Assembly: GCA_004173455.1 (NCBI GenBank)
Contig: SECL01000008.1
Coordinates: 35,409-99,408 of the forward strand
Reading direction: 5' to 3'
Length of the DNA stretch: 64,000 bases
Source of the DNA: Moraxellaceae bacterium
GTDB taxonomy: Bacteria; Pseudomonadota; Gammaproteobacteria; Pseudomonadales; Moraxellaceae
Part shown: positions 23,079-28,587 of the stretch, one piece after another
Layout: the number at the start of each line of letters is the position of its first letter
Position numbering within the stretch: position 1 is the stretch's first letter
Notes under the pieces: generated by a model
Databases searched by the model: none
What the model was told of the DNA's origin: nothing
What the model saw: only the letters and a program-made list of their open reading frames with translations
Made by a program: the position numbers and the translations under genes

Positions 23079-23094
23079 AGCACCCGAAGGTGCT
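23079..23094 (-). other. Hairpin between MuF and scaffold genes
   Basis: AGCACC-CGAA-GGTGCT with a stable tetraloop-like centre, overlapping the MuF stop codon and followed by TTTTTTATTGG on the minus strand. Confidence 0.55.
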
Positions 23095-23890
23095 ATGCGT
23101 TGAATCCTGGTATTAATGCCCGTGACGTGCACTTGCAGTTAATTTCCTCTCCGGGTTGAATCCACTTCCCATCGATATACATGCCCTGTTCAATGTCATA
23201 TTCCTTACCATCAGCATGCACATGGGAAATACGGGGATTGCGGCCAGCGTGGGAGTGTTGCCAGATTGCGCGGGTCATACCCAATTCCAGCCGGCGCTCT
23301 TTTTCAATAGCTGCCTTGGCCTTGCTGTTCTGGTCACGGGCAATCAGATCTGCCCGACGCCTGGACATCTCAAACCGTTCTTGCAGGGTTTTGGACAGCG
23401 TGCCCATATCATGGCCAGACTGTACCGACTGCCAGACCGCTTGCTGTACGCCCTGAAAATAATCAACGCCAAGATTACTGATTAAGCCGACATTGGCGCC
23501 AATGACAGCCTGATAAGCCTGCTCGCTGCGCTCAGTCATATTAAAGCTAACCGTGAAGCCTACTTTTTTTAAAGCCTGCATCATGGCGCGTTCAGTATGT
23601 TGGGTGGCACCCTTGGCAAAGATTCTGGCTACTTGTGGGCCAAGGTCATTTAGGCGCCTATACCAGCTGCTAGTCAGGCGCTGAAATAAGCGCTGAAGCA
23701 TGACCGGCAAATTAGCATCCTGGGCAATGCCGGGTCGATGCTGGCCATAAAGCACAACAACCTCGGCCAGCACATCACTATGCATCTCGGCCAGCAGATG
23801 GCGTAACGCTTTACGGTAGGCCACCTCAACACCAAGGTTGGGTGTAGTAGCCTTGATTGTGGCTGGCCGTTTACCTTTCATAACACCCAT
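23093..23890 (-). CDS. MuF / SPP1 gp7-like head morphogenesis protein
   Basis: The 265-residue protein has the conserved SPP1 gp7/MuF C-terminal region: RRRADLIARDQNSKAKAAIEKERRLELG, AIWQHSHAGRNPRISHVHADGKEYDI and EEINCKCTSRALIPGF. These proteins enter the head with the portal and influence DNA ejection. Neither candidate start (23,890 or 23,881) has a clear ribosome binding site, unlike nearly every other late gene, and the -35 element of the adjoining small-RNA gene lies only a few bases upstream. An insertion may have separated the gene from its original leader. Confidence 0.85.
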   Translation of the reverse strand: MGVMKGKRPATIKATTPNLGVEVAYRKALRHLLAEMHSDVLAEVVVLYGQHRPGIAQDANLPVMLQRLFQRLTSSWYRRLNDLGPQVARIFAKGATQHTERAMMQALKKVGFTVSFNMTERSEQAYQAVIGANVGLISNLGVDYFQGVQQAVWQSVQSGHDMGTLSKTLQERFEMSRRRADLIARDQNSKAKAAIEKERRLELGMTRAIWQHSHAGRNPRISHVHADGKEYDIEQGMYIDGKWIQPGEEINCKCTSRALIPGFNA

Positions 23891-23894
23891 AAAT

Positions 23895-23923
23895 TTGCCA
23901 GTGATTAAACATTGATCTATAAT
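23895..23923 (+). promoter_or_regulatory. Sigma-70 promoter of the small RNA gene
   Basis: TTGCCA (23,895-23,900), 17-bp spacer, TATAAT (23,918-23,923). This is the closest match to the sigma-70 consensus that I found in the late region, and it faces against the late operon. Transcription would begin near 23,930. Confidence 0.75.
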
Positions 23924-23929
23924 TAAGAC

Positions 23930-24027
23930 ATACCACGTGAACTGGAAGTAGAACGTTTCGGACGTTCAGCGGACGCAGACCAATGGTCGGGAGTCAGGCG
24001 CTACTATGAGTTCATGTGGTTTTTTTT
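23930..24027 (+). ncRNA. Candidate independent structured small RNA between portal and MuF genes
   Basis: The ends ACCACGTGAACT (23,932-23,943) and AGTTCATGTGGT (24,009-24,020) form a 12-bp closing stem with eight T at 24,020-24,027, so the 3' end is an intrinsic terminator. One pair is G-U in the plus-strand RNA but A-C in the minus-strand RNA, so the plus strand is the folded one. Inside are AGTAG/CTACT, a hairpin AACGT/ACGTT with a UUCG-containing loop, and a nested arm AGCG-GAC-GACC / GGTC-GTC-CGCT. A promoter of near-consensus quality starts it at its first stem base. The last ~16 nt are antisense to the end of the portal-nuclease gene. I do not recognise the RNA family. Confidence 0.75.
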
Positions 24028-26015
24028 ATCCACATACTCACCACTGACAGCTTTTTATTGCCTGTACGCAGTTCCTGAATACAAACAGTATGATTTCCTA
24101 AATTTTTCTTCAGGATTACTGTTTCGTTGCCCCGGTCATTAATTCCGCCGTATTCCACCGAATCAGGTGCATTAACAATATCGCCGATTTTTTCAATATC
24201 GGTTTTAGTGACAGCAACCTGACCGCGCTTTGCTTCCGTCACAGCATTACCGTGCTTTTTCAGAATATGCCGAATGGCCGATTCATCAATGCCGTGCACC
24301 CAGCCCGTAACGTCCACACCTACCTCAGCAGAGATTTTTTGAGTCACCTCTGGAGAAACTGGTGCAATATTGGCAAATGATTTATTGCCATCTGCCCTTG
24401 ACGTTGCAATATCAAAAATATCTGTCAGATCTGCCTTACCTTTATGAGCTGATGGCTGGCCAGAACCACCACTGCCAAACTGGCCATTGTCAGCCCGTGG
24501 GTGCTTTCCCTCGCTCCACTCTCCACCTCCATCCATGGCAGGGTCATTGTCCAGTTGTTCCGGCACGTCCTCAGCATCCAAGCCGTTATAGCCACTTAAT
24601 GGACTACTGGCCAAACGCTGACGCTCTTCCTGGGAACAAATTACACCTGCATCAATCAGCGCAGCAGCGGCCTCGGCGTTGATTTTGTTAATGTTGGCAA
24701 TCTGTTCTTCGGTCATTTGCTCCAGTGGTAGATACTCAAAAATAATATCCGGATAAATCTTGCCAAACAGGTGCAACTGAACAATCAGGGTTATGACCAC
24801 CAGTGGATCGGTTAATAATACTTGCTGTGTCGATAACACATAATCATAGAAAACTCTGATTTCGCCATCACTAGAAGCATTAAGGCCATTCGGTGTAATC
24901 CCAAACAGTTTGACCAATGGAATATGGCAAGGTGCAGCCATTTGTTCCTGGGCTTGAGCTTGCAGATCAGATAGGCCGGATAATGGCGTATTGAACTGAA
25001 AAAACTCCTCATCCTCGTTTAACATCATCAGGTTGCGATTATCACGCATCCGGTTAAACAGGGTTGCCCGGTTCAATAGGCCAGTGGCATCGCCGTTGCC
25101 TTCCTCACCATCACCAGCCAGAAGTGTGGCCATATTGGTTTTTAGGCCACTAACGGAGAATGAATGCACCATGTCACTGATTGCATCACGGGTGCGTAAC
25201 CAGTTATCAACAGCTGGCATTAACATCTGTGTCATACTCAGGCCACTGAAATTATAGGAAGGCTTGAGCATGTCAGCAACTGGATGACTGATAAACAATA
25301 GTACACGGCTAGTGTGAATCGGCTTGCCCATGACATACCAAGAACGCGGCCGGTAAAAATACTTATCGGTCGGGTCTATGCTGTTGTAATCCGCTGGGCT
25401 AGTCCAGATCGGCTCAATGGCCTTAAAGCCTTTCAGGCTATCCTTTTTAATAGTGGCCGAACTAATGACTAAAGGTAGGTTGTTATCCTGCGGCTTGCCA
25501 AGGTCAATGTAAACCATGCCACGGCCAAAATAGCCGTCGTGCTCAATGGCCTGTTTGAGAACGTCACGAACCTTAAAGGTATCAAAAGCCTGTTCGATCA
25601 GCTTGATCTGCTCGCTCCGGTCTTCATCACCAATACTTTTAAAGCTAACCCATTTACGGGTCATTTCTGTGGCCAGTGTGGTAGTTGGGCTACGGTACTC
25701 GCTACGCTGGGATAACTCAGACAGAATCGGATAGCCCGGAAAATCCATGCTCGCGCCAGCAAGATTGGCATAGTTCATGGGCATGGCGCTATCCATGGCC
25801 AGTGAGTTAGTAACATCAGTAGGAATTACACCAGCTGGCAATGCCGGTAATGCAAACTTGGTGATAGTTTGTGTTGGCTGTTCATCAGCACCCAGTCTGG
25901 CCAGCAACGCATTGTTGATTTTCAGACCACGCCTTTTCGGTGCCGCCGGTTCTACAGGCGTCAGAACACCGAGCATACGCATGGCGATGCTCAGGAATTT
26001 TTCACGAATTTTCAT
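24012..26015 (-). CDS. Portal protein (DUF1073-type) with fused C-terminal PBECR-like nuclease domain
   Basis: Residues ~60-480 match DUF1073 portals: YRSPTTTLATEMTRKWVSF, RSWYVMGKPIHTSRVLLFISH, FSVSGLKTNMATLL, LVKLFGITPNGLNASSDGE. The portal forms the DNA gate. After a linker (KHPRADNGQFGSGGSGQPS), residues ~530-667 read as a phage Barnase-EndoU-ColicinE5/D-RelE-like nuclease (PBECR type): AIRHILKKHGNAVTEAKRGQ, TKTDIEKIGDIVNAPDSVEY and a final strand KLSVVSMWIKK. PF06381, the family to which DUF1073 belongs, is sometimes labelled anti-CBASS Acb1-like in databases; the portal role is supported here by its place between terminase and MuF. The nuclease activity is inferred. Confidence 0.85.
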   Translation of the reverse strand: MKIREKFLSIAMRMLGVLTPVEPAAPKRRGLKINNALLARLGADEQPTQTITKFALPALPAGVIPTDVTNSLAMDSAMPMNYANLAGASMDFPGYPILSELSQRSEYRSPTTTLATEMTRKWVSFKSIGDEDRSEQIKLIEQAFDTFKVRDVLKQAIEHDGYFGRGMVYIDLGKPQDNNLPLVISSATIKKDSLKGFKAIEPIWTSPADYNSIDPTDKYFYRPRSWYVMGKPIHTSRVLLFISHPVADMLKPSYNFSGLSMTQMLMPAVDNWLRTRDAISDMVHSFSVSGLKTNMATLLAGDGEEGNGDATGLLNRATLFNRMRDNRNLMMLNEDEEFFQFNTPLSGLSDLQAQAQEQMAAPCHIPLVKLFGITPNGLNASSDGEIRVFYDYVLSTQQVLLTDPLVVITLIVQLHLFGKIYPDIIFEYLPLEQMTEEQIANINKINAEAAAALIDAGVICSQEERQRLASSPLSGYNGLDAEDVPEQLDNDPAMDGGGEWSEGKHPRADNGQFGSGGSGQPSAHKGKADLTDIFDIATSRADGNKSFANIAPVSPEVTQKISAEVGVDVTGWVHGIDESAIRHILKKHGNAVTEAKRGQVAVTKTDIEKIGDIVNAPDSVEYGGINDRGNETVILKKNLGNHTVCIQELRTGNKKLSVVSMWIKKTT

Positions 26016-27867: not shown

Positions 27868-27881
27868 TGAGCCTAAGCTCA
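27868..27881 (-). other. Hairpin after the metallopeptidase gene
   Basis: TGAGC-CTAA-GCTCA overlapping the stop codon, followed by TTTTTTTTGCC on the minus strand; a possible terminator between the metallopeptidase and the packaging genes. Confidence 0.55.
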
Positions 27882-28550
27882 CTTGATAACGACTGCCCCG
27901 CAGCCTCGCTCCACTTCAGCATCCGGTACAAACGGTGCAGTATTGGCAATGTTGGCCAGCCGCTTGGTGTCGTTGCTTGCACCCCAGCGCCTAACGGTGT
28001 CGAAAAACTCCTCAACGTCATGATTGACCAAACGATGCTTAGGCAGGCCTGTATTGTTGCTATAGATCATTTCACCATCTTCATCGCGCTCAACACCAAT
28101 ATGGCATAGCTCATGGTCAACCAATGCGCAAAACTCCCGATCGGTAGCGGTTTCACAATAACTGGCATCCAGCGTAATTAAATAGGTTGGTGTAAATCCG
28201 AACCATTCACGCATCTGCTGTTCCTGGCGTGCTTTCTGCCAGCCACCAGCACGGAACGCCACACGCTCACACTGGCCAAGTACTAGGCTGTTTTTATTTT
28301 TAGCCGGTGCGGATGCCCAGGCAAAAGTTAAAAACCCACTATCCTCCTCAATGGACTCTACCAGTAGGGAAATATGCTCATGCTCCGGGTTGTACAGTGG
28401 ACTACCAATTTTAAGGAATGTGCGCTTTACCCATGCTAGCAACTCACGTGCCGGAATTAATTTAACCGGCGGTTCAATGCCATCAAGTAAATACGCTTTG
28501 GTTTCATCTAAAAAATCAGCAGGCGGAAATGGTCTAACTAGGTCAGTCAT
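27879..28550 (-). CDS. Putative phage metallopeptidase
   Basis: The start MTDLVRPFPP at 28,550 follows AGGTGTTCCA. The 223-residue protein contains FCALVDHELCHIGVERDEDG, a HExxH-type zinc motif with a following Glu-rich segment and a downstream NHDVEEFFDTVRRWG that may give the third ligand. It matches the phage metallopeptidase family that often lies at the start of packaging operons. Substrate unknown; head maturation or host-protein cleavage are both possible. Confidence 0.8.
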   Translation of the reverse strand: MTDLVRPFPPADFLDETKAYLLDGIEPPVKLIPARELLAWVKRTFLKIGSPLYNPEHEHISLLVESIEEDSGFLTFAWASAPAKNKNSLVLGQCERVAFRAGGWQKARQEQQMREWFGFTPTYLITLDASYCETATDREFCALVDHELCHIGVERDEDGEMIYSNNTGLPKHRLVNHDVEEFFDTVRRWGASNDTKRLANIANTAPFVPDAEVERGCGAVVIK

Positions 28551-28571
28551 TGGAACACCTATAAAAGAAAA

Positions 28572-28587
28572 GGCCAACCTATTGGCC
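28572..28587 (-). other. Hairpin GGCCAA-CCTA-TTGGCC
   Basis: Perfect 6-bp stem just upstream of the metallopeptidase ribosome binding site, with TTTTCTTTTAT following on the minus strand. Confidence 0.55.

Follow-up and report, generated by a model that had tools for sequence, protein, structure and literature searches.

A junction-marked cargo slot on a phage portal protein and a predicted convergent small RNA gene behind its PBECR3 nuclease domain

Results and discussion

Overview

The window, by which we mean the whole 64,000-nucleotide stretch of Moraxellaceae DNA analyzed here, encodes a phage portal protein that ends in a nuclease domain, and behind this portal nuclease lies a convergent, promoter-equipped, structured RNA gene. 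As an architecture this arrangement is evident in the sequence; the RNA gene itself is a prediction and its expression is inferred. Portal-PBECR fusions were already known. What is added here is the junction-marked slot that holds the nuclease domain and, most importantly, the small RNA gene that is convergent with the portal gene. Both were absent from the initial annotation of this DNA, which had been made from the sequence alone.

The portal protein and its nuclease domain

The portal gene (24012..26015, minus strand) is an uninterrupted ORF of 667 aa with an ATG start; it has Pfam matches to portal and PBECR3 domains and belongs to the portal family phrog_146. Its DUF1073/Phage_portal_3 domain (24666..25730, minus strand; residues 96-450) matches PF06381 with an E value of 3e-83. 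The PBECR3 domain, a predicted endoRNase (24018..24347, minus strand; residues 557-666), is supported by Pfam, by alignments, by AlphaFold2 and by Foldseek. The match to the PBECR3 profile PF18812 has an E value of 1.5e-25 and scores 89.8 bits against a cut-off of 30, taking in profile positions 7-110 of 115. It cannot be ascribed to chance, since it lies 60 bits over the curated threshold and since H588 and D606 show no variation among 14 aligned homologues. Residue S660, in VVSMW, is Ser or Thr in nearly all homologues and stands before the final MW. We infer from the alignment that H588 and S660 occupy predicted active-site positions of PBECR3; His, Asp and Ser/Thr are the kinds of residue named for PBECR active sites by Iyer et al. 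(2017, PMC5512222).

With an alignment of homologues, AlphaFold2 modelled PBECR3 as a separate alpha/beta domain (pLDDT 91.8) whose topology is a helix followed by four strands. In Foldseek comparisons the closest structural matches were polyvalent proteins of phages that bear the annotation 'Nuclease' (TM 0.79), and the neighbours in the PDB include, weakly, the RelE/YoeB toxins (E 0.07-0.3, TM up to 0.53). The C-terminal domain of the portal is a PBECR-family nuclease domain; its RNase activity is inferred. A full-length portal model built from 5 sequences (pLDDT 41.6) was too poor for placing the nuclease domain. No match to PF18810 (PBECR2) was found in the genome, in a search without a positive control, and the sole match in a scan for PBECR1 relatives was the query itself.

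That this is an ordinary portal with an extended crown, to which the PBECR match is incidental, can be all but excluded. Long C-terminal crowns do exist in some portals, but against this explanation stand the strength of the PF18812 match (89.8 bits), the confidently modelled separate fold, and the replacement of the entire segment by an unrelated domain in the sister portal L016.

These results bear out most of the initial annotation, which had placed a PBECR-like nuclease domain on a DUF1073 portal on the strength of a few stretches of residues and had named an ordinary portal barrel or crown in a structure prediction as the refuting case. The domain assignment held (PF18812, AlphaFold2, Foldseek), and a barrel or crown is not what the model shows. 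All the quoted stretches were located in the one ORF: RHILKKHG at residues 582-589, KRGQVAVTKTDIEKIGDIV from residue 596 and WIKK at residues 662-665. The interval given, 24012-24430, is correct to within the linker, the domain proper being 24018-24347. Fusion to a portal had been called less usual; Iyer et al. (2017, J Bacteriol, PMC5512222) already name fusions to MuF and to portal proteins as the simplest PBECR architectures.

A polymorphic cargo slot

The cargo slot starts at a junction, EWSEGKHPRADNGQFGSGG (24465..24521, minus strand; residues 499-517), after which comes the Gly/Ser linker. The junction is common to the window portal and to portal L016, from a genome of the same family. 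The two share 64% identity as far as residue 522, a stretch that takes in EWDESKHPRADNGQFGSGG; past that residue L016 carries LPD3 where the window portal has PBECR3. The pattern [WF][DE]E.KHPR..NG.FG.GG was used to examine a separate, independent collection of 136 portals that had been gathered by core only. We called a portal short if it ends within 80 aa of the portal domain (113 portals) and long otherwise (23 portals). The junction is present in 20 of the 23 long-tailed portals and in none of the 113 short ones; nineteen of the 20 match the fixed pattern and the other, L285, has a longer spacing. A scan of viral contigs for KHPR..NG.F returned 99 stretches, nearly all in frame, and their flanks are conserved although these lay outside the search pattern. 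On DUF1073 portals the cargo after the junction is PBECR1, PBECR3, LPD3, an ADP-ribosyltransferase, a zeta-toxin kinase or topoisomerase IB, and the junction likewise stands ahead of cargo in head proteins of other kinds and in small standalone proteins. The same portal trunk thus bears alternative C-terminal domains after a conserved junction, which constitutes a polymorphic cargo slot.

Several individual loci deserve mention. An unexpected virion cargo is the topoisomerase IB catalytic domain (PF01028, E 4e-13) that follows the junction on the DUF1073 portal at L003:3450-5882, from the same phage as L242. The portal at L002:1024-4218, to which L004 and L005 are related, has the junction twice in succession, along with two cargo domains; the latter of these weakly resembles a zeta-toxin-type kinase (PF06414). 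At L108:12724-13860 a DUF2213 head protein carries the junction and LPD3 at its N-terminus, and the portal of that phage also has an LPD3-like tail. In BK070131.1 (L048:4953-6914), a prophage labelled Helicobacter pametensis, the portal is split into two CDS and ends in the junction and LPD3; viral contig L216 has a nearly identical gap element. Standalone cargo proteins (L059, L085, L090 and similar ones) have a short start, MAKHLHIYFH or MALHIHIHRR, with the junction almost directly after it, and we therefore suggest that the junction is a signal and not a linker only.

The gap behind the cargo

In the window the portal stop is followed by a 121-nt gap without a protein gene and then by the gene for a MuF-type head protein (23093..23890, minus strand; 265 aa; PF04233, E 9e-13) that has no cargo domain. 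The MuF protein is unextended in every case in which it accompanies this portal clade. The PHROG family of the window MuF, phrog_324, also weakly matches the window nuclease domain, at positions behind the MuF region. The distance from the portal to the MuF domain has a median of 20 nt for bare portals versus 176 nt for cargo portals. The next coding gene typically begins 36-170 nt past the nuclease stop, so that no immunity protein fits behind the nuclease and there is room only for an RNA. Elsewhere in the window, upstream of the packaging genes, a PhageMetallopep gene (27879-28577, minus strand; PF18894, E 3e-33) is a candidate for cargo release at the junction.

The predicted small RNA gene

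The gap holds a predicted gene for a structured small RNA of ~100 nt (23930..24029, plus strand), which is convergent with the portal-nuclease gene and overlaps its last 18 nt. Ahead of it is a sigma-70-type promoter, TTGCCA-17-TATAAT (23895..23923, plus strand), with 11 of 12 consensus matches and an end 6 nt from the 100-nt folded segment. This segment folds with an MFE of -37.7 kcal/mol (z -4.64; 0 of 200 shuffles as good). A 12-bp closing stem (23932-23943/24009-24020) is followed by a T run at 24021-24028, which would give a U8 tail, and the conserved core CGTTTCGGACG (23954..23964, plus strand) lies in a hairpin. The fold of the other, cargo-sense strand of the gap is unremarkable (z -1.1), and across loci the cargo-strand folds show no excess over controls (p 0.43). 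The plus strand folds far better than the sense strand because G-U pairs complete its stem.

An Rfam search with this RNA gave no match above the gathering score and only chance-level hits (E about 1), so a known riboswitch, ribozyme or sRNA was rejected and the small RNA gene is apparently undescribed. A host repeat or MITE was likewise rejected, since the RNA model found the full-length RNA in the window only and in none of the other genomes among the 210 searched. Integron attC sites were rejected on inspection: the variation is in the outer stems and the conservation in the inner core, which is the reverse of attC, and the constant AAC/GTT ends are lacking. Also against a host repeat, element E2 was not found in 83 genomes from the family to which Snodgrassella genome G1390 belongs, among which there was no positive control. 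In a related prophage, L126:14072-14156 matches the Rfam family sRNA-Xcc1 (RF02221, 65.6 bits) upstream of a gene with a KilA-N antirepressor-like start.

Conservation of the RNA core and related elements

A 17-mer from the window gap, scanned against viral contigs, gave 9 stretches, about the chance expectation; among them were an array in L131 and three MuF-PBECR3 genes with the motif right after the stop. Every C-terminal PBECR3 gene in the collection was then examined for the core, and further PBECR3 loci were subsequently fetched as a test. The 11-nt core, allowing at most 1 mismatch, was found behind 12 of 27 non-redundant C-terminal PBECR3 ORFs versus 1 of 200 control ORFs (p 7e-12). 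Among the loci gathered after the motif had been defined it was present in 4 of 15 new non-redundant cases versus 1 of 297 control ORFs (p 2e-5). The RNA core is associated with C-terminal PBECR3. Because it occurs behind portal-borne, MuF-borne and standalone PBECR3, in unrelated phages, it tracks the nuclease and not the genome position.

Antisense promoters with at least 9 of 12 consensus matches were found behind 18 of 41 PBECR3, LPD3 or PBECR1 cargo genes versus 14 of 250 controls (p 1.4e-9) and 23 of 328 GC-matched controls. With at least 10 of 12 matches required, the counts were 9 of 41 versus 0 of 250. Four full-length RNAs (from the window, L131, L146 and L316) can be aligned on the plus strand. 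Their core is invariant, each has a T run following the closing stem, and two-sided changes occur in 6 of 20 consensus pairs; an alignment of the opposite strand has 5 pairs with two-sided changes, a number equalled by 11 of 500 shuffles. Significant folds were also obtained for the RNAs of L146 (z -4.05) and L108 (z -4.0). The GC-rich relatives L045 (z 0.2) and L329 (z -0.7) have no significant fold, some GC-rich relatives have weak promoters, and many loci of the A5 group keep a degenerate core only.

Similar convergent RNA genes are predicted behind LPD3 and PBECR1 cargo. In L131, whose portal carries LPD3, the gap contains an orphan copy of the PBECR3-type RNA, preceded by the apparent last codons of a lost PBECR3 gene; this is reminiscent of orphan immunity genes. 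The gap behind the LPD3 portal in L131 (11427-12130) and in L119 holds a series of palindromic elements that differ from one another, and several of them contain A-run/T-run and -10-like sequences. These elements are found singly behind the cargo genes of other phages, and the series are possible orphan RNA gene arrays. Elements 3' of the PBECR1 genes in L213 (5550-5635) and L103 share GCAG[AG]CCA..TTCC inside covarying stems and would be a PBECR1-type counterpart of the window RNA. Those 3' of the LPD3 genes in L136, L092, L131 and L215 share CGTTTAA inside variable closing stems.

Two explanations that deny the RNA any part in immunity can be weighed here. According to the first, the small RNA regulates the late operon, either as a cis-antisense RNA or through the 3' end. 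It would damp the readthrough that passes from the portal gene into MuF, or shape the end of the mRNA, and would play no part in neutralising the nuclease. In its favour, the RNA is complementary to the late mRNA where this runs from portal into MuF, and it has a terminator. We consider it unlikely, however: sequence conservation is not required of a cis-antisense RNA, yet unrelated phages have retained the core; the RNA accompanies the nuclease into portal, MuF and standalone contexts; and a gap of this kind is lacking behind the bare portals of this clade (the 20 nt noted above).

According to the second, the palindromic elements are cassette mobility parts, either recombination or transposition signals or insertion scars, and not functional RNAs. 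The gaps do come with the cassettes, there are serial palindromes in L119 and L131, and cassettes in several phages are bordered by 10-13-nt direct repeats, GATGAAAGCAAGC. Two portals, L220 and L115, end in AEWDESKP followed by the stop, and appear to be empty cargo slots. Their DNA, GAAAGCAAGCCATGAA, matches the repeats that flank the cassettes in L290, L118 and L050, and is the product expected from exact recombination between the repeats flanking some sister cassettes; these two empty sites thus fit exact excision. When direct repeats were sought at every cassette by a fixed procedure, however, they were detected in some phages only and not at the window or most other loci, and the repeats may be a mere recombination substrate. 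In addition, the elements have conserved antisense promoters and often U-tract terminators, and the core tracks the nuclease family. We therefore regard this explanation as very unlikely.

A possible RNA antidote

The reading that we favour is that of a virion-borne RNase effector for which an RNA serves as immunity factor instead of the usual protein. At present we would not weight it above its negation: that the RNA is expressed, that the domain acts as an RNase, that it is delivered and that the RNA neutralises it are all inferences. In outline, the portal protein of a temperate phage would bear an exchangeable effector. Every subunit of the portal, normally 12 in number, would carry after the junction and a flexible linker a C-terminal PBECR3, a predicted metal-independent endoRNase. 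The portal C-termini face inward, and the cargo is inferred to lie inside the head. It would be freed, probably by cleavage near the junction, and enter the next host with the DNA, where the released PBECR3 may cut RNA; alternatively it may act late in the producer. Cargo left uncut from the portal could not enter the host. The small RNA, having its own promoter, could be made in the lysogen while the prophage late genes are silent, and it would bind and block the nuclease, for which there are no binding data, rendering lysogens and producer cells immune. It would thereby take the role of the small immunity proteins found beside MuF toxins. Neutralisation is proposed because the characterised MuF toxins have adjacent immunity genes, yet here there is room for an RNA only, and the conservation of the RNA core favours recognition of a partner over simple antisense.

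Several points count against the antidote reading. There are no expression, RNase, binding or virion data, and the initial annotation's suggestion that the domain is toxic or injected with the DNA likewise remains inference only, without toxicity or delivery data. If the RNA is an antitoxin, one would expect the nuclease either to process it or to be occluded by it, and there is no evidence either way. The convergent RNAs behind LPD3, the activity of which is unknown, also need explaining. It also remains possible, if rather unlikely, that the nuclease is not delivered at all and acts in the producing cell only, or that the domain is a structural or RNA-binding knob, perhaps inactive, as Iyer et al. 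inferred for Mu gp30 (PMC5512222). The portal is retained in the shell of the virion, a cleavage site has yet to be demonstrated, and the full-length model is poor (pLDDT 41.6). Against this, the predicted active-site residues are retained (H588 invariant, Ser/Thr at 660), and the ADP-ribosyltransferase and zeta-toxin enzymes in the same slot make little sense for a structural knob.

The antidote reading can be put more boldly: PBECR and LPD3 effectors would each have a dedicated convergent RNA immunity gene, which neutralises the cargo in lysogens and producers, moves with the cassette and accumulates in orphan arrays directed against the cargo of other phages. Here our doubts slightly outweigh our confidence. 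If true, it would be an RNA counterpart to the immunity that proteins provide against MuF, Rhs and CDI toxins, and the orphan arrays may point to an RNA-based layer of superinfection immunity. How phages are protected from nucleases built into their own virions is an open question, and a conserved RNA gene tied to such a nuclease makes the antidote idea directly testable by one co-expression experiment. The junction motif, for its part, provides a handle for a systematic search for portal-borne effectors.

Comparison with known systems

The closest precedent is provided by the PBECR fusions of Iyer et al. (PMC5512222), which have the same domain family, the same fusion to the portal and a predicted RNase packaged in the virion. 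The present case differs in that the cargo behind one and the same junction varies among sister portals, and in the convergent RNA gene behind the nuclease. Neither the KHPR junction letters nor the word 'linker' occurs in the main text of that paper, and its relevant passages mention no RNA gene. In the literature searched, which left out most subscription journals, there was nothing relevant on the junction or on MuF with RNA antitoxins.

The MuF polymorphic toxins (Jamet et al. 2017, PMC5576092; Bxa, PMC11699363; Apk2) likewise place a swappable C-terminal toxin domain on a head protein of a temperate phage, and PBECR3 occurs on MuF too (L313, L316; phrog_324). The trunk here is the portal, however, and the MuF protein is bare at 265 aa, so that a toxin behind MuF, as in that class, is not found. 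Bxa and Apk2 have adjacent immunity genes (PMC11699363), whereas here no immunity protein gene lies directly downstream and there is an RNA gene instead.

The proposed logic of an RNase toxin and a structured RNA antidote is like that of the type III toxin-antitoxin systems (ToxIN, AbiQ; reviewed in PMC5086642). Type III antitoxin RNAs are tandem repeats upstream of the toxin on the same strand. The window RNA is downstream, on the opposite strand and has its own promoter, and thus does not conform to that arrangement; the nuclease, moreover, is from another family and is part of a virion protein. Type I systems also have a convergent RNA with its own promoter and terminator that overlaps the 3' end of the toxin gene. 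In contrast to these, the window RNA has a core that lies beyond the ORF and has been conserved in different phages, and the toxin would be a soluble nuclease domain and not a small membrane peptide. Finally, the Rhs, CDI and Maf toxins combine a conserved junction, swapped C-termini and orphan immunity elements downstream, much like the system described here. They differ from it in that the trunk here is a phage portal and the putative immunity elements are RNAs.
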